In this document: positions 7,184 to 43,207 of the stretch, in pieces
How the letters are laid out: every line of letters starts with the position of its first letter
Numbering within the stretch: position 1 is the stretch's first letter
From: Gemmatimonadota bacterium
GTDB lineage: Bacteria; Latescibacterota; UBA2968
Length of the DNA stretch: 55,250 nucleotides
NCBI GenBank assembly: GCA_009838845.1
Contig: VXRD01000019.1
Coordinates: forward strand, 1 to 55,250
Reading direction: 5' to 3'
Program-made: the position numbers and the translations under genes
Notes under the pieces: model-generated
Told to the model about the DNA's origin: nothing
The model's database searches: none
The model's input: the letters and a program-made list of their open reading frames with translations, nothing else

Positions 7184-8638
7184 ATGCCAAATACACGTCC
7201 GAATATTGTTTATATCCTCGCCGATGACATGGGCTATGGAGATGTGGGATGTTATAATCCGCATTCGAAGATCCCCACGCCGTATATGGATCGGTTGGCG
7301 CGCGAGGGGATGCGGTTTACGGATGCACATTCGCCTTCGGCGGTGTGTACGCCCACGCGATATGGGATTTTGACCGGGCGTTATTGTTGGCGCACAGAAT
7401 TGGAGAGCCATGTGTTGTTCAATTACGAATTGCCGTTGATTGAACCCGAGCGTATGACGGTGGCTTCTTTGTTGAAGAATTGTGGATATCACACGGGGTG
7501 TTTTGGCAAGTGGCATTTGGGTTTGGGTTGGGGGGTGAAGGATGGTGAGGTGTTTGATTTTGATCAGCCCCTGCCGTGGCCGGGTGGATCACCCGATCCT
7601 GTGGAGGAAGATAAGATCGATTTTTCAAAGCCGATTGCGGGCGGTCCGATTGAGCTGGGGTTTGACAGGTTTTACGGGACATCGGGTTGTTCGACGGCGC
7701 AACCGCCTTATTGTTTTATCGATCAGGATCAGACGGTGGGTATTCCGAGTGTGCAAAAGCCGGTTGAGATGGCGGGTGGTCGGCGCGGTTTGATGGTTCC
7801 GGATTGGGACCACAAGGAAGCGGATCCGGCTTTTACGGAGAAGGCTGTGGCGTATATTGAGGAGCGGGCAGGGGATGAAGATACGCCCTTTTTTCTCTAT
7901 CTGGCGGCTTCTGCGCCGCACGAACCGTGTACGGTCGCGTGTGTGCCGGAGTTTTTGCGCGGTGCGAGTGAGGCGGGTCCCCGGGGAGATATGGTCGCGC
8001 TGGTTGACTGGATGGTGGGGCAGGTGATGGATGCTCTGGATCGCTGTGGGTTGGCGGATGATACGCTGGTTATTGTGACGAGTGACAATGGGGCTTTGCC
8101 TGGCTGTAATGGTCGCACGTATGGTCACAAGTCCTGCGGTGATTGGCGCGGTTTTAAGGGGTTTATCTGGGAGGGGGGGCACAGAGAGCCGTTTATCGCG
8201 CGCTGGCCGGGTGTTGTTGCGCCCAATTCGGTTTGCGATGCGCTGGTCGGGTTGCAGGATTTTATGGCGACTGTGGCGGATATTGTGGGGGAGACGCTTC
8301 CAGAGGATGCGGGTGAAGATAGTGCGAGTTTTTTTCCCGCGTTGATGGGTGAGACTGAGCCAGTTCGAGATGATTTGATACACCATTCCTGCATGGGGGT
8401 GTTTTCGATTCGGCGAGGGGATTGGAAGTTGATTGTCGATTGTGATAATTCCGGAGATATGGGGCGCGGTGTGGATGGATGTGTGGGCACGGGTCCTGTG
8501 CCGGGGGCAAGGGGTCAGCTTTATCATATGGAAGATGATCCGTTTGAGTCGTATAATCAGTTTGGCAGAGAACCGGGTATTGTGCGCGAGTTCAGGGAGA
8601 TGGTCGAGCGGTATATCGCCGATGGAAGGAGCGTGTGA
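7184..8638 (+). CDS. Sulfatase, arylsulfatase A-like
   Basis: A 484-residue sulfatase with RPNIVYILADDMGYGDVGCY at the N-terminus, CTPTR at residues 55-59 followed by TGRYCWRT as the formylglycine motif, and VTSDNGALPG plus HKSCGDWRGFKG as the second metal and substrate region. The layout resembles arylsulfatase A and GalNAc-sulfatase-like enzymes. The start at 7184 lies two bases after the cupin stop codon; an earlier in-frame ATG would overlap the cupin. No signal peptide is visible. The stop codon shares one base with the ATG of the next gene (TGATG), so translation is coupled to the PhyH oxygenase downstream. Confidence 0.93.
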   Translation: MPNTRPNIVYILADDMGYGDVGCYNPHSKIPTPYMDRLAREGMRFTDAHSPSAVCTPTRYGILTGRYCWRTELESHVLFNYELPLIEPERMTVASLLKNCGYHTGCFGKWHLGLGWGVKDGEVFDFDQPLPWPGGSPDPVEEDKIDFSKPIAGGPIELGFDRFYGTSGCSTAQPPYCFIDQDQTVGIPSVQKPVEMAGGRRGLMVPDWDHKEADPAFTEKAVAYIEERAGDEDTPFFLYLAASAPHEPCTVACVPEFLRGASEAGPRGDMVALVDWMVGQVMDALDRCGLADDTLVIVTSDNGALPGCNGRTYGHKSCGDWRGFKGFIWEGGHREPFIARWPGVVAPNSVCDALVGLQDFMATVADIVGETLPEDAGEDSASFFPALMGETEPVRDDLIHHSCMGVFSIRRGDWKLIVDCDNSGDMGRGVDGCVGTGPVPGARGQLYHMEDDPFESYNQFGREPGIVREFREMVERYIADGRSV

Positions 8639-9414
8639 TGGCTTATTTGACGGTTGATGATAAAGAGGCGTTTCGAGAGAAGGGCTATGTGATTAAACGC
8701 GATGTGGTGACGCCCGAACAGATGGAAGCTGCGCGAGATGTGATCTGGGATCATTTGCCTGTGGATCGCAATGATCCTTCTACGTGGGTTGGGAAAGAGG
8801 GGTCTCAGGGGATGGATGGTCATGCGGCGTTTCACGCGTTGGTTTACGATTCGCCGTTGTACAGTATGGTTGAAGAGTTGGCTGGTAAGGGGCGTTTGGC
8901 GCCTTTGCATCCACCAGTTACGTCGGCAAATTTGCGGTTTCCGCAGGGTGGGGAGTGGGAAGAACCCAGGGGTAATCATATGGATGGGCACGGGCTTGGC
9001 AGCGGCGTTGTGAATAATTGGACGGTGGGTATTACGCTGTATCTCAATGATGTGAAGCCTCAGGGCGGGGGTACCTGCGTGTGGCCGGGGACGCATAAAC
9101 ACATGGCGGATTATTTTAAGACCCATTCGCGGGTGAGTCTGGGTAAGAAGTTTTACGATTTGCCGATTTACGAGGGCGAACCGCGTTCGACGAGGCCGCT
9201 GGAGATTCTCGATTGGGATGAGGAGGATTATGAGGAGATTTCTGGGCCAGCGGGGTCCGCGATGCTCTGGCATAGTCATTTGATTCACAGCGCGAGTATG
9301 AATTGTAGCGATGAGATTCGCATGGCGATTATTACGCGTTTTCGGTGGACGAATTGGGATGATCTCAAGTTTGAAGATCCGGATGATATGTGGGCGTATT
9401 GGGAGGGGATGTAG
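8638..9414 (+). CDS. PhyH-like Fe(II)/2-oxoglutarate dioxygenase
   Basis: A 258-residue member of the phytanoyl-CoA dioxygenase family. The iron triad is visible: His114 and Asp116 in NHMDGHG and the distal His217 in HLIHSASMN, with Arg228 placed to bind 2-oxoglutarate. The ATG overlaps the sulfatase stop by one base, giving tight coupling, so the substrate is probably a sugar or sulfated intermediate of this pathway rather than a lipid (inference). Members in environmental bacteria hydroxylate small metabolites, and the family is often expanded beside sulfatases. A GTG one codon upstream is a less likely start. Confidence 0.88.
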   Translation: MAYLTVDDKEAFREKGYVIKRDVVTPEQMEAARDVIWDHLPVDRNDPSTWVGKEGSQGMDGHAAFHALVYDSPLYSMVEELAGKGRLAPLHPPVTSANLRFPQGGEWEEPRGNHMDGHGLGSGVVNNWTVGITLYLNDVKPQGGGTCVWPGTHKHMADYFKTHSRVSLGKKFYDLPIYEGEPRSTRPLEILDWDEEDYEEISGPAGSAMLWHSHLIHSASMNCSDEIRMAIITRFRWTNWDDLKFEDPDDMWAYWEGM

Positions 9415-38565: not shown

Positions 38566-39132
38566 ATGTATAAACGATTGTTTGCAGGTCTGATGTTGAT
38601 GGCTATGGGGTGGACGCCCGCCTGGGCGACGACTGTGAAGACGTTTGTTTTTGAAGAGATGTGCGAAACCGCGCAGACTATTGTATATGTCAAATGTCTC
38701 GCGCGCGATAATGCAGTTTTTGCCGATCGAGAGGGTATTTTTACCCAAACGCGGTTTAAAATTATGGAGGTGGTCAAAGGGCAGACTGATTCAGAAATGG
38801 TGCTGACTTTGCCCGGCGGTGAGTGGGAAGGACAGCGCATGTATGTGCCTGGTATGCCGCAGTTTGTGGTGGGGCAAGAGACTGTGCTGTTTCTTTCGAA
38901 GCGCGACGATTTTGGTTCTCCATGGCCGATGGGATTGGGACAGGGGTGTTATGCCGTGCAGGTGGGTGAAGGTGGAAATCGCCAGGTCAGACTCAGACAT
39001 GTGCCTTTGCCTCCGGAGGTACGCAGCAAACCCGCACAAGCGCAAACATCGCACATGGAGTTGGGCGATTTTTTGACTGCGGTTCGAGAAGTGCTCAATT
39101 TGAACCAGCAAGAGGCACCTGCTGAACAGTAA
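38566..39132 (+). CDS. Secreted protein of unknown function
   Basis: A 188-residue exported protein. MYKRLFAGLMLMAMGWTPAWA is a clear signal peptide, cut before TTVKT. The mature part contains TRFKIMEVVKGQT and an LPGGEWEGQRM turn, as in small uncharacterised secreted proteins; no catalytic motif is visible. AGGAGGTAGGAG precedes the ATG. It ends eight bases before a membrane-protein gene and begins a five-gene + strand cluster that includes the branched-polyamine synthase, so a surface-related role is plausible but unproven. Confidence 0.75.
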   Translation: MYKRLFAGLMLMAMGWTPAWATTVKTFVFEEMCETAQTIVYVKCLARDNAVFADREGIFTQTRFKIMEVVKGQTDSEMVLTLPGGEWEGQRMYVPGMPQFVVGQETVLFLSKRDDFGSPWPMGLGQGCYAVQVGEGGNRQVRLRHVPLPPEVRSKPAQAQTSHMELGDFLTAVREVLNLNQQEAPAEQ

Positions 39133-39140
39133 GGGGTAAT

Positions 39141-40229
39141 ATGAATCTGCATTTTGATATTCGAGATATTTTTCGCTGTGTGCGACTGGGTTGGTCTGGG
39201 AAAAAAATTTGGGTTGGGCTGTTGGGGCTGGTCGCAGCTTGGGCGGGCTATTCGGCTTTGTTGCTTATCGCACATGTCCGCGCGGGCAGTGGGGACATGT
39301 GGCAGCGCTATGGTTTATTCCCTGGCGCAGCGATCGGTGAATTTGATCTGCCTGGCACGGGGTTGCACATTTTGGGCATGGTGTTTGCCCTTGCGGTGGT
39401 GTTTGTAACGACCAGTATGATGTGCAAGATCACTTTTCAGCAGCTTCGGGGCGATGAATTTTATTCGGTTGGCGATGCCTGCCGATTTGCAAGCGCGCGC
39501 TGGAAAACCGTGCTGTTTGGCCCCGTTGCCGTGCTTGCTCTGTTTGCCCTTTTTGTGGTTGGCGGCGTTGTGATTGGGTGGATTGCCGGCTGGATCCCCT
39601 CGGTGGGTGAGATAGTTTTCGCGCTGTGTTTTATTCCCATTTTTTTTGCGGCTTTGTTGGCTGTGTTTATCGGTCTGGTATTTGTTGTTGCTGTGATTAT
39701 GTCGCCAGCTATTGTGGGTACAGAGGGGGTTGATATTTTAGATGTTGTGATACAGTCGTTTTCACTGACGTGGTCACAGCCCTGGCGATTGGTTTTGTAT
39801 GCGGTGTGGATGATTTTTGCGGTGTGGGTTGGTTTGATGATGCTGGGAGCTTTAACCATGGCTGCGATTGGTCTGATTGCCTGGGCATGTGGTTTGTTTA
39901 TGGATGTTAAACTGGCCAATCTTTTTTACGTGGCGTCGCACTATCTCTTGTTTGTCCCGGAGAAATGGGATGATTTGTTTGCGAGTTTGCCCGTGCCTGG
40001 GATACCGTCGGGAGCCGAGGTCTGGGGTGGTGGTATCCTCGGGGTGATGCTCATTGTGATTACGGGTATTGTGGTTGCTTATGTCCAGGCGACTTATGCG
40101 TCGGGACTGAGTTTGATGTATGTGGTTTTAAGACATCGCAAGGACGATGAAAATTTGCTTGCTCGGGATGATGATCTCGAGGTTGTGAGCGAGGAGGCCG
40201 GCGATAACACTGATTCCGAAACGGCATAG
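39141..40229 (+). CDS. Multi-pass membrane protein of unknown function
   Basis: A 362-residue integral membrane protein with about six to seven long hydrophobic stretches (for example residues 27-44, 76-95, 125-150 and 160-190) and an acidic cytoplasmic tail. No transporter or enzyme motif is recognised. AAGGGG precedes the ATG. The end of the gene contains GAGGAGG, which is probably the ribosome site of the polyamine synthase gene, so the two are translationally linked. It may build or export the product of the downstream enzymes (inference). Confidence 0.8.
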   Translation: MNLHFDIRDIFRCVRLGWSGKKIWVGLLGLVAAWAGYSALLLIAHVRAGSGDMWQRYGLFPGAAIGEFDLPGTGLHILGMVFALAVVFVTTSMMCKITFQQLRGDEFYSVGDACRFASARWKTVLFGPVAVLALFALFVVGGVVIGWIAGWIPSVGEIVFALCFIPIFFAALLAVFIGLVFVVAVIMSPAIVGTEGVDILDVVIQSFSLTWSQPWRLVLYAVWMIFAVWVGLMMLGALTMAAIGLIAWACGLFMDVKLANLFYVASHYLLFVPEKWDDLFASLPVPGIPSGAEVWGGGILGVMLIVITGIVVAYVQATYASGLSLMYVVLRHRKDDENLLARDDDLEVVSEEAGDNTDSETA

Positions 40230-40248
40230 GTCAAATTTTCCCGTTGAC

Positions 40249-41262
40249 TTGCTGCGCGAGGTGGCAATCCAGGCGCGGCTGGCCGAAGGTGCCGAGGGTG
40301 TGCGTCGCATTCTGCGAACGGTTTTTATGGCTGAGCAGATTCCCGTTCGCAATGTCGCCCAGGAGGTGGGGTTGCCCGTTCCCGTGGTTGCCGCTGTGCG
40401 GGGTGAATTGGAAAAGAGAGGTATTTTGACGCGAAAAGGTGGGGTTTCGCTCACGGGTAAGGGCCTGAGTGTTGTGCAATCGGAGTTGGGGCTTTCGTGC
40501 CGCAAACGCTTTGCGCGCCCGGGCGTGCCTCCCATACCTGTGGTTTTGAAAGAGGTGTGTGGTCGTTTTGCAGATATTGCTGAGAGGCGACCAGAGGTCG
40601 ATGTCAAACTGGATCAGTCCCATGCAACGCCCGAAACTGTTTTAAGGCGTGCTGTGTATTTGTACGAACACGATGCTCTCGAAGGGCGCAATCTGCTCGT
40701 TCTTGGGGACGACGATCTGACGTCTGTGGCGGTGGGATTGCTGGCGCAGCATTTGGAGATTGTTCTCGGGCAGGTGGTGGTGTTGGAGTGCGATGGGCGG
40801 CTCGTTGATTTTCTCGGTGTAATCAGCGAACGCGAAGGGTTGCCTATCACTGTGATTGCACGCGATTTGCGCGAAGATATTCCGGGTGACCTGTGCGGGC
40901 AAATGGATGTGTTTTTTACCGATCCACCCTACACGTTGTCCGGTTTGTCGTTATTTGTTTCTCGCGGTGCTTCTGCACTGGTGCCCGAGGTGGGTAAGCA
41001 GGGGTTTGTCAGTTTTGGCCGTCGTTCACCAGATGAGACAGTACGGGCGATTGGTTCATTGATCGAGATGGGCTTTGCGCCTGTGGAAATCATACCGGAT
41101 TTTAATAAATATGTCGGTGCCCAGGTATTGGGGGGGGTCAGTCAGATGATTCGTCTGATTTCTACCGGGAAGCCACAGCCTCTTGTGACTGGCACATATC
41201 ACGGGGCACTGTACACGGCTGATCTCAAAAGGCGGCGACAAGGTGATCGGGCATCCCATTGA
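40249..41262 (+). CDS. bpsA: Branched-chain polyamine synthase-like protein (BpsA family)
   Basis: A ~337-residue aminopropyltransferase of the BpsA type, which attaches aminopropyl groups to spermidine to give branched polyamines. An N-terminal winged helix (VRNVAQEVGLPVPVVAAV) precedes the methyltransferase-like core. GDDDL at residues 153-157 and DPPYT at 225-229 are the family's catalytic motifs, and LDQSHATPETVLRRA is its typical lead-in. The start is uncertain: the first conventional start codon is TTG at 40249 without a ribosome site, while GAGGAGG at 40191-40197 points to a start near 40204-40213 at a non-standard codon. The DUF2156 gene overlaps its end by 20 bases. Best known from thermophiles, so its presence here is notable. 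Confidence 0.82.
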   Translation: MLREVAIQARLAEGAEGVRRILRTVFMAEQIPVRNVAQEVGLPVPVVAAVRGELEKRGILTRKGGVSLTGKGLSVVQSELGLSCRKRFARPGVPPIPVVLKEVCGRFADIAERRPEVDVKLDQSHATPETVLRRAVYLYEHDALEGRNLLVLGDDDLTSVAVGLLAQHLEIVLGQVVVLECDGRLVDFLGVISEREGLPITVIARDLREDIPGDLCGQMDVFFTDPPYTLSGLSLFVSRGASALVPEVGKQGFVSFGRRSPDETVRAIGSLIEMGFAPVEIIPDFNKYVGAQVLGGVSQMIRLISTGKPQPLVTGTYHGALYTADLKRRRQGDRASH

Positions 41263-42121
41263 TCCCACGTATGGCGAGTATTTGCGCGATGTGTTTTTGC
41301 GAGCAAATAAGCGGGCCTGGTGTTATTTTCCGCCCTTTCTCTGTGCTTTTAGTCTCGCACCCAATCGGATTGTGTGCGTCGATGAAATTGCGGGGAGTAC
41401 GTGTCTGTTAGTAAAGCGTCCAGAAGGTGTTGACTTGCTGCTGCCACCTGTTCCCTGTGATGCTGATACGCTGAAGAGGGTTGTCGATAAACTTGCCTCT
41501 CATCAGGGTGGTCGTCTGCCGAGAATTTTGTGGTTAGATGCCTGTGATGCCAAATATGTAGATACCGACAAGTTTGCACTTCGCGATAAAGACGCAGAAT
41601 ACGTTTACGATCCATCGCAGATTGCTGCGGCTACAGGAAGGCGTTTCAGGGATGTGCGCAAGCGCGTGCGCCGTTTTGAGCGCGCCCACGCGTTCCGTTT
41701 TCGCGCTTTGACTGCGTGGGATGTGCCGGATTGTTTCGCGCTGTTGAAGCATTGGCGTCGGCGCCAGGGGCGTCGGCATCCCTTTTTGCTGGACTGGGGA
41801 TATACGCGGGCAGCGCTCGATCAGTTTCATTTTTGGTCAGAAGATGTGTTGTGGGGGTGGTGTGTGGAGGTTGCGGGACGGATTGAGGCTTTTGCCCTGA
41901 GCGGAAAGATGCAGCCCGATTTGGCGCATTTTTTTGTTGCGAAGACCAATCCCGATTTGCCCGATTTGTCGTATTTTTTGCGATGGCGAGTTTATGGCGC
42001 GTTGTCTGCTTATCGCCGCGTAAATGACGCTGGAGATCTGGGTTTGTCGGGTTTGCGCCAGTTCAAGCAGAAATTTCGACCTGTGGATCAGTGGCGGGTT
42101 TTTTCAGCAGAACCCCTGTGA
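41243..42121 (+). CDS. DUF2156 protein, GNAT-fold acyl/aminoacyl transferase-like
   Basis: A 292-residue DUF2156 protein related to the catalytic part of phosphatidylglycerol lysyltransferase (MprF) with two GNAT folds. Conserved blocks are YVYDPSQIAAATGRRFRDVR in the middle and NDAGDLGLSGLRQFKQKFRP at the C-terminus. Relatives transfer aminoacyl groups to lipids or act on other small molecules. The start is a GTG at 41243 overlapping the polyamine synthase gene, so the two proteins are made together; a role in attaching or modifying a polyamine is a fair hypothesis and nothing more. Confidence 0.82.
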   Translation: MIGHPIDPTYGEYLRDVFLRANKRAWCYFPPFLCAFSLAPNRIVCVDEIAGSTCLLVKRPEGVDLLLPPVPCDADTLKRVVDKLASHQGGRLPRILWLDACDAKYVDTDKFALRDKDAEYVYDPSQIAAATGRRFRDVRKRVRRFERAHAFRFRALTAWDVPDCFALLKHWRRRQGRRHPFLLDWGYTRAALDQFHFWSEDVLWGWCVEVAGRIEAFALSGKMQPDLAHFFVAKTNPDLPDLSYFLRWRVYGALSAYRRVNDAGDLGLSGLRQFKQKFRPVDQWRVFSAEPL

Positions 42122-42129
42122 GGCATATT

Positions 42130-42417
42130 ATGAACAGGTTGCTAATCGTTGCAATTTTGAGTCTATGGATTTGTGGATGCGAGACCACATCGCCCTCTTC
42201 TTATGTTTATTACGAGGTGGTGCATTCTCCAGAGCAAGTCGCGGTGGGAGATTCTCTGTTGATAGAGACCAGAGAGGGCGCGACATTTCAAGGGATTTTG
42301 TTGCGGGCAGATAAAGAAGAGATTGTGGTGACGACAGAGACGCAGGGTAAGATCCGGGTACTCTGGCGCGAGGTCTCCAAGGTGAAGCGCGTTATAAGGG
42401 CAAGGGCGCAGGAGTGA
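42130..42417 (+). CDS. Small putative lipoprotein
   Basis: A 95-residue protein starting MNRLLIVAILSLWICGCETT: a basic tip, a hydrophobic core and a lipobox-like WICGC, so the Cys before Glu-Thr is probably lipidated and exported. The rest is a small beta-rich domain (GDSLLIETREGATFQGILLR), similar in feel to Sm-like or SH3-type folds. It starts eight bases after the DUF2156 stop codon and overlaps the convergent PhyH gene by 26 bases. An upstream in-frame start at 42091 would lie inside DUF2156. Confidence 0.78.
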   Translation: MNRLLIVAILSLWICGCETTSPSSYVYYEVVHSPEQVAVGDSLLIETREGATFQGILLRADKEEIVVTTETQGKIRVLWREVSKVKRVIRARAQE

Positions 42418-43207
42418 GTAAGCGATCTACTTCGTTGGACCAGGTGTTGGCAACGCAAAGGCCGTATTCTTTTTTTCCTCCTGTGGAAAGGGGACCTGTG
42501 AGGTGGGTATAGCGTTGGGTTGCTTTGAGGTTTTTGGGAATATAGTCGGTGTTCAAAAAGTGCAGTGCAAGGCCCGCGCGTTCTCTGTGTGTGGTATTTG
42601 CAAGTGTGCGATGTGCAATGCCAAAGTTGAAGAAGACGGCACCTCCGGCTGGCAATTCAATGGGGATGGCTCTTTCTTCGGGTACTGTGCAGTGGATGTG
42701 GTGGTCGCTGTTGGGGTCCCGGTCGTGGGCGTAAATTTCGCGGTGGCTGTCGGGTACGATGTGCAGTGTGCCGTTGGCGATGTTGGCATCGTGAAGGGCA
42801 ACCCACATGCCAACGCCTTTGGCGGGATCGCTGATTTTGAAATACGCGTTGTCCTGGTGCCAGTCCGTGCCAATGCCCTGTTTGCCGGGTTTGAGAAAGA
42901 TCTGGTCGAGGTGGAATACAAAGGGAGAGCCGATGAGTTGCTCGACAAGGGCGAGGACTTTGGGGTGAAAGTGCAGGGCGCGATAAAACGCGCTTTTGGG
43001 CGTGATGGGACAGATTTGCAGGTTGATTTGCGTTTGTGAATGGGTCTGCCCATCCCCGTCGGTGGCGACATTGCGGAGGAGGCCCTCGCGTTTGAAGCGG
43101 TCGAGTTCAGCGCGCATGGCGCGTATTTCCCGGCGGGTGAACATGTCCGGGACTATGGCGTAACCCGAGGTGCGAAAGCGGTCGAGTTGTTCTTGTGTTA
43201 GAGACAT
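42392..43207 (-). CDS. PhyH-like Fe(II)/2-oxoglutarate dioxygenase
   Basis: A 271-residue phytanoyl-CoA dioxygenase-family protein. The iron ligands are His117 and Asp119 in DWHQDNAYF and His199 in GIAHRTLANTT, with Arg210 for 2-oxoglutarate. It begins eight bases after the end of the oligopeptide-type ABC transporter operon on the same strand and is likely its last gene, so it may act on a compound that the transporter imports. Its end overlaps the lipoprotein gene on the other strand. The substrate cannot be assigned. Confidence 0.9.
   Translation of the reverse strand: MSLTQEQLDRFRTSGYAIVPDMFTRREIRAMRAELDRFKREGLLRNVATDGDGQTHSQTQINLQICPITPKSAFYRALHFHPKVLALVEQLIGSPFVFHLDQIFLKPGKQGIGTDWHQDNAYFKISDPAKGVGMWVALHDANIANGTLHIVPDSHREIYAHDRDPNSDHHIHCTVPEERAIPIELPAGGAVFFNFGIAHRTLANTTHRERAGLALHFLNTDYIPKNLKATQRYTHLTGPLSTGGKKEYGLCVANTWSNEVDRLLTPAPLPL

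Follow-up and report, generated by a model that had tools for sequence, protein, structure and literature searches.

In a 55,250-nucleotide stretch of DNA (the window), which is contig C19 (VXRD01000019.1) of a genome placed in the Latescibacterota (5.75 Mb, 97.8% complete), we found that two overlapping genes, one for a protein of the BpsA family and one for a DUF2156 protein, form a conserved unit, found as an operon, which in two genomes includes speD, and in another phylum as one fused enzyme. The reading that we favour, tentatively and as somewhat short of probable, is that of a two-step module, in which an aminopropyltransferase dependent on decarboxylated S-adenosylmethionine (dcSAM) would make an amine and the DUF2156 partner would then acylate it, probably from aminoacyl-tRNA. 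The pair lies within five close forward-strand genes at 38566-42417 (Table 1), all of which had been reported in a preliminary description of this DNA and were confirmed in position, strand and spacing, with successive gaps of 8, 19 and 8 bases and an overlap of 20 bases between bpsA-like and DUF2156.

Conservation of the BpsA-like/DUF2156 pair

To follow the pair through the phylum we surveyed 64 genomes, in which loci carry L labels, genomes G labels and families the labels f1-f8. The BpsA_C domain exceeded its cut-off in 29 of them and was of three kinds, namely 23 window-like proteins with a GDDD motif, three canonical proteins with an acidic tail (f8) and three with a GDHD motif and a long C-terminal extension (f4). 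A profile of the cluster DUF2156 protein, built from 14 rows, matched 23 of the 64 genomes, and these were identical to the 23 with the window-like BpsA, the match lying within about 0.7 kb of BpsA_C in every case. The functional BpsA-DUF2156 link suggested in the preliminary description is thus strengthened, by adjacency in 23/23 genomes and by one fusion; the outcome that it named as refuting, BpsA homologues with random neighbours, does not apply to the window clade and does apply to the other BpsA_C types, since the subfamily profile had no match in any of the six genomes that carry them (6/6). The close named relatives of the window BpsA-like protein, at 91-95% identity, come from six Latescibacterota/Latescibacteria and one Gemmatimonadota.

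The order membrane gene, bpsA-like, DUF2156 is the same in 21/21 loci of families f1-f3, down to 42-64% identity. In three of these genera (L045, L047, L049) a search of 20 kb around the locus did not reveal the rlmN-murA-cca block upstream, and the trio was still present, so that general synteny does not explain its retention, and in the two genomes of family f7 the order is bpsA-like, speD, DUF2156. The survey shows that BpsA-like and DUF2156 genes form a genuine unit here. A fortuitous neighbourhood, in which slow rearrangement has left unrelated genes side by side, would agree with the conservation of the entire rlmN-to-phyH region throughout the window genus, but the pair outlives the surrounding synteny, has been reordered with speD and is fused in another phylum; we regard chance as hardly credible and, as the fusion contradicts it, rejected it.

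That fusion emerged when 386 genomes were searched with the DUF2156 profile; outside the phylum this gave one strong match, in genome G320 (1.1e-79), and 24 weak ones at 5e-27 or weaker. In G320, the sole genome with a match among seven examined from its phylum, a single 762-amino-acid protein consists of BpsA_C (2.7e-40), a zinc ribbon that scores below its cut-off and LPG_synthase_C (2.4e-16). It is preceded by a methylthioadenosine (MTA) phosphorylase gene (TIGR01694, 307 bits against a cut-off of 274.85) and followed by a SpeD-family gene (PF02675, 1e-19; 69.1 bits against the TIGR03330 cut-off of 75.65). With speD between or after the pair and MTA phosphorylase before the fusion, aminopropyl chemistry by the pair appears likely from gene content. 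As a control, we examined 28 generic DUF2156 loci from other lineages and found BpsA-like or SpeD genes in the flanking 1.5 kb or so of none, whereas both were detected at the f7 and G320 loci included in the set; for SpeD the control is a soft one, its profile coming from three sequences, two of them from f7/G320-type clusters.

In a plasmid search Microvirga ossetica gave the only matches to the window DUF2156 protein, and matches to the BpsA-like protein were confined to Nonomuraea and an Agrobacterium plasmid; no BpsA-like/DUF2156 pair lay in the context of any of these matches. The Microvirga ossetica plasmid carries two DUF2156 genes of the window subclade in opposite orientation (L117:5905-6825 and 7780-8712) close to a gene of the CapA family, and the 12.8 kb retrieved contain no BpsA-like gene; this counts against the reading that we favour, as the subfamily therefore also works without such a gene. 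In the DUF2156 tree the BpsA-linked rows group with the two from Microvirga (support 100/99), but alone they are not resolved as one clade. In the BpsA tree the window clade, G320 included, is separated from other BpsA_C proteins with support of only 59/66, which is a further point against. A scan of viral contigs with the BpsA-like profile gave no relative.

The BpsA-like enzyme

The third gene of the cluster was described at the outset as a member of the BpsA family, and this was borne out by a match to PF01861 (1.6e-44, 152.5 bits against a cut-off of 27) and by phmmer matches to PDB entry 2qm3 and to the BpsA structure 5xnc. BpsA is the N4-bis(aminopropyl)spermidine synthase (EC 2.5.1.128) of Thermococcus kodakarensis, the source of 5xnc, and Thermus thermophilus, and PMC12979288 ascribes distinct roles to its residues: the GDDD motif (Asp159 and Asp160) positions dcSAM or its aminopropyl group, Asp225, Glu259, Tyr290 and Tyr316 activate the acceptor and five acidic residues in the C-terminal tail act as aminopropyl carriers. 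The GDDD motif (Gly153-Asp154-Asp155-Asp156) is invariant in 14/14 rows of our alignment, and the window clade also keeps the equivalents of Asp225 (the Asp of TDPP), Tyr290 (the Tyr of FNxY) and Tyr316 (a tail Tyr, located by counting along the canonical f8 rows), as well as an alignable N-terminal region ahead of BpsA_C.

In other respects the clade departs from BpsA. Glu259 is replaced and the C-terminal acidic carrier cluster, present in 3/3 canonical f8 rows, is absent from 11/11 clade rows, the tail being short and mostly basic in f1-f3 and longer in f7; in addition, the N-terminal CxxC pair is mostly missing, and in contrast with BpsA the gene is always tied to DUF2156. As both the acidic carriers and Glu259 are lacking, which counts against the reading that we favour, the reaction may differ from that of the characterized enzyme, and with the dcSAM site kept and the known carrier gone the transfer would be direct or would use a carrier located elsewhere. 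We therefore rejected a plain BpsA identity, the defining residues being lost; the enzyme is not a canonical branched-polyamine synthase, as the label given earlier would have it.

Other PF01861 proteins were seen in the course of these searches. A second match in the window organism itself (C79:28106-28303) reached 23.8 bits, under the cut-off, has counterparts in other genomes of the genus and is probably a generic Rossmann enzyme. The GDHD variant with the long C-terminal extension occurs in f4 (L055:3685-5424, L056:9527-11197 and L057:8077-9723) and in Nonomuraea (L119:5479-7368), and in L055 and L057 it lies, by eye, near genes for PhyH, an enolase-superfamily protein and DNA polymerase I. 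The Agrobacterium plasmid pLN1-233332 carries a short gene with the motif GDGD (L118:6013-6843), annotated as bis-aminopropyl spermidine synthase family, in the same run as genes for an AAA ATPase, an ATP-binding protein and a helicase; given that motif, it may have a job other than making polyamines.

SpeD and the probable supply of dcSAM

In both f7 genomes a 118-amino-acid gene separates bpsA-like from DUF2156, and the copy that was scanned (L054) belongs to the S-adenosylmethionine (SAM) decarboxylase family (PF02675, 1.2e-27; TIGR03330, 90.3 bits against a cut-off of 75.65); in the phylum search it was the only SpeD match in either genome. SpeD was present in 21/23 clade genomes, the two without it being assemblies of 420-430 contigs, and in the window organism it is encoded elsewhere in the genome and not in the cluster. 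We found no PF01564 match at an E-value of 0.001 in the f7 genomes G049 and G053 (97% and 95% complete) and a single one, of 22.7 bits, in the f3 genome G021, which leaves the BpsA-like protein as the only candidate for an aminopropyltransferase found in the f7 and f3 genomes. In G320, PF01564 matches fell only in frames of 772 and 515 amino acids. The window genome does have a polyamine aminopropyltransferase of the PRK03612 type (508 amino acids, 570.7 bits against a cut-off of 472), and thus the BpsA-like enzyme is not its only one.

The motifs of these SpeD proteins bear on a different reading of the pair, in which the substrate of the BpsA-like enzyme would be SAM itself, used for 3-amino-3-carboxypropyl transfer or in some other SAM-dependent reaction. 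The SpeD linked to it would then be an ornithine/arginine decarboxylase or would decarboxylate the product. The SpeD of the window genome, like that of each f1 and f2 genome examined, has the canonical ESH...HTWPE...C arrangement and that of G021 reads QSH...HTWPE, but two others fit a dcSAM supply less well. The f7 protein (QSH...HTWAE) keeps the Ser, His and Cys, with the Pro of HTWPE changed to Ala and a Gln before the cleavage Ser, and the G320 protein (ESH...NTWPE) keeps the Ser, Cys and Pro, with the processing His changed to Asn. SpeD homologues that occur without SpeE are, according to PMC10407285, possible ornithine/arginine decarboxylases, marked by a Pro and four further residues; which Pro is meant, one that separates SAM from arginine decarboxylases, is our own inference. 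By these marks the f7 and G320 proteins may not be SAM decarboxylases, and the argument from dcSAM is consequently weaker there, though not in f1 and f2.

The loss of the acidic tail agrees with the use of SAM itself, as does the finding that the five PF02784 decarboxylase genes examined, from a family present in 13/13 genomes tested, all score best as diaminopimelate decarboxylase (LysA), three of them over its cut-off; MTA phosphorylase would fit 3-amino-3-carboxypropyl transfer too. The invariant GDDD motif, which positions the aminopropyl group of dcSAM, and the canonical SpeD of f1 and f2 speak the other way, and we consider this reading very unlikely. A separate observation on these genes is that in G012, G013, G014 and G015-G020 (e.g. 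L152-L156) SpeD lies in frames of 409-446 amino acids that also match PF01564, as SpeD-SpeE fusions, unlike the window genus, where the two genes are separate.

Predicted fold and relatives of the DUF2156 protein

The window DUF2156 protein matched PF09924 (2.2e-15, 57 bits against a cut-off of 27.5), and an AlphaFold2 model built from a 14-row alignment had a mean predicted local distance difference test (pLDDT) score of 90.7. In a fold search the model was closest to 2hqy (Z 32.2), a Bacteroides thetaiotaomicron DUF2156 protein whose function is not known, followed by the C-terminal domains of MprF (Z about 19-20 over about 260 residues), 6snr, which is titled FemX (16.7), Sba18/Sbb17 of the streptothricin group, which are aminoacyl-tRNA-dependent ligases acting on streptothrisamine (about 16.5), and Weissella FemX (about 16). 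Sequence and profile searches of the PDB with the protein and two alignments gave only 2hqy as a credible match (9.2e-20 by profile); the links with MprF and FemX accordingly rest on the predicted fold together with the Pfam family. By eye, 2hqy resembles the generic DUF2156 set, with its NREQDLG-type motif, and not the BpsA-linked one.

The relationship with MprF, the lysyl-/alanyl-phosphatidylglycerol synthase, that had been noticed at the start is therefore upheld by PF09924 and by the predicted double-GNAT fold. In contrast with MprF, the window protein stands alone, with no N-terminal multi-transmembrane flippase domain, no LPG_synthase_TM domain in the chain and no hydrophobic span over threshold in a hydropathy analysis of its 292 residues, and its partner is BpsA-like. 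We conclude that it is predicted to be a soluble protein with the MprF/FemX fold. Its likeness to the aminoacyl-tRNA-dependent ligases of small molecules (the FemX type, Sba18/Sbb17, VlmA and Orf11) is one of predicted fold, with no sequence match detected in the PDB searches. Across 17 diverse DUF2156 proteins six residues are invariant, among them Lys275 (17/17). Aminoacyl-tRNA-dependent GNAT ligases use a catalytic Lys, Lys305 in FemX and Lys329 in DhpH-C.

Precedent for aminoacylating a soluble amine comes from PMC2922099 and PMC12945691, which describe the transfer of amino acids from tRNA to small soluble molecules by GNAT enzymes; for VlmA, one of the two calls it MprF-like and the other finds it similar to FemABX in sequence and structure. 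A shared fold does not, however, fix the donor, as CoA-dependent enzymes have it too, and this tells against assuming aminoacyl-tRNA. An alternative is that the product of the BpsA-like enzyme is a branched polyamine, which the DUF2156 protein acetylates or otherwise acylates via CoA to set its charge or turnover. In accord with this, an acetylated branched polyamine is reported from T. kodakarensis in PMC12979288, the protein has the GNAT fold with a PF13480 acetyltransferase match that is sub-threshold in the window protein and over the cut-off in the G320 fusion, and tandem CoA-dependent GNATs reach a Z of 14 against the model (mycothiol synthase, 14.0, then others). Among functionally characterized relatives, however, aminoacyl-tRNA users rank above these enzymes, at Z 16-20, and a dedicated, always adjoining and once-fused partner is more than would be expected of a general acetylase; we think CoA-dependent acylation unlikely.

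The proposed two-step module

In the two-step module that we favour, SpeD would supply dcSAM and the BpsA-like enzyme would pass the aminopropyl group of dcSAM to an acceptor that is probably a diamine or polyamine, with release of MTA, a step suggested by motifs and context. The soluble DUF2156 protein would then acylate that product, most likely with an amino acid from aminoacyl-tRNA, a step suggested by fold, fusion and co-occurrence. The final product would be an aminoacylated, possibly branched, polyamine, which the membrane protein of f1-f3 may, as a guess, move or sense. That the pair defines a new class of natural product, in which an aminopropylated and perhaps branched polyamine is aminoacylated from aminoacyl-tRNA, is possible, and we put it on the doubtful side.

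Should this be correct, the aminoacyl-tRNA pool would be tied to polyamine chemistry, and one branch of the unannotated DUF2156 family would gain a function. The host bacteria are, we presume, not hyperthermophiles. Branched polyamines are described in PMC12979288 as mainly a trait of thermophiles and as made by one type of enzyme with an acidic carrier tail. A divergent clade of uncultured bacteria whose enzyme lacks this tail and is tied to a partner with the MprF/FemX fold would imply that aminopropyl transfer can use a new acceptor or a new mechanism. The fusion in G320 makes the hypothesis testable with a single gene. Our literature searches found no paper holding both DUF2156 and polyamine and, judged by titles and abstracts, none about the BpsA-like/DUF2156 pair.

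Envelope genes and other features of the cluster

The remaining three genes of the cluster encode a membrane, a secreted and a lipoprotein, none of which matched Pfam above cut-off when the window proteins were scanned. The membrane protein has about six or seven hydrophobic spans, and its AlphaFold2 model (pLDDT 62.4) was too low in confidence for a fold search. The lipoprotein gave weak RimP-type matches (the C-terminal SH3 domain of RimP) and a homologue weakly matches LSM, which suggests a small beta-barrel on a lipid anchor.

Table 1 Genes of the cluster at 38566-42417 of the window
Feature	Coordinates	Strand	Basis and remarks
Secreted protein, 188 aa	38566..39132	+	Open reading frame; signal peptide by eye; no Pfam/NCBIfam match; peripheral member
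Multi-pass membrane protein, 362 aa, no known family	39141..40229	+	Hydropathy; no Pfam match
BpsA-like probable aminopropyltransferase, TTG start	40249..41262	+	PF01861; N-terminal winged-helix-like region and BpsA_C
DUF2156/LPG_synthase_C double-GNAT protein, 292 aa, predicted soluble	41243..42121	+	PF09924; AlphaFold2 model
Small lipoprotein, possible SH3/Sm-like domain	42130..42417	+	Lipobox by eye; no match over cut-off; peripheral member

These neighbours had prompted the earlier proposal that the polyamine is attached or exported to the envelope. Stated as a mechanism, the DUF2156 protein would modify a lipid, or some molecule of the surface, with an aminoacyl or polyamine group, and its membrane neighbour would flip or export the result. 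The MprF domains among the best fold matches are compatible with this, as are the membrane gene that adjoins the pair in all 21 f1-f3 loci and the secreted and lipoprotein genes that often do so. Secreted-protein homologues adjoin the cluster in part of f1 and f2 (L002-L008, L046, L048, L050, L051, L052 and L058) and were not found by it in L045, L047, L049, L053 and L054, and lipoprotein homologues adjoin it in L045, L046, L049, L052, L058 and the window genus. Against an envelope route, the search gave no homologue of the membrane, secreted or lipoprotein genes next to either f7 cluster, and by eye the G320 fusion had none for a neighbour; the DUF2156 protein lacks a hydrophobic span, and two members of the membrane-protein family had no Pfam match on scanning, LPG_synthase_TM included. 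The envelope genes are a lineage-specific addition outside the conserved core. We consider the envelope route quite unlikely, and MprF-like lipid modification is not supported in the form first put forward, although a lipid may be the acceptor of the DUF2156 protein.

In the window we found no Rfam family, and promoter-like and terminator-like sites fell within the range seen in shuffled sequence. Downstream, on the minus strand, a gene for a PhyH-type dioxygenase (42392-43207) overlaps the end of the lipoprotein gene with its own end by 26 bases, and it is kept in this downstream position in several relatives.

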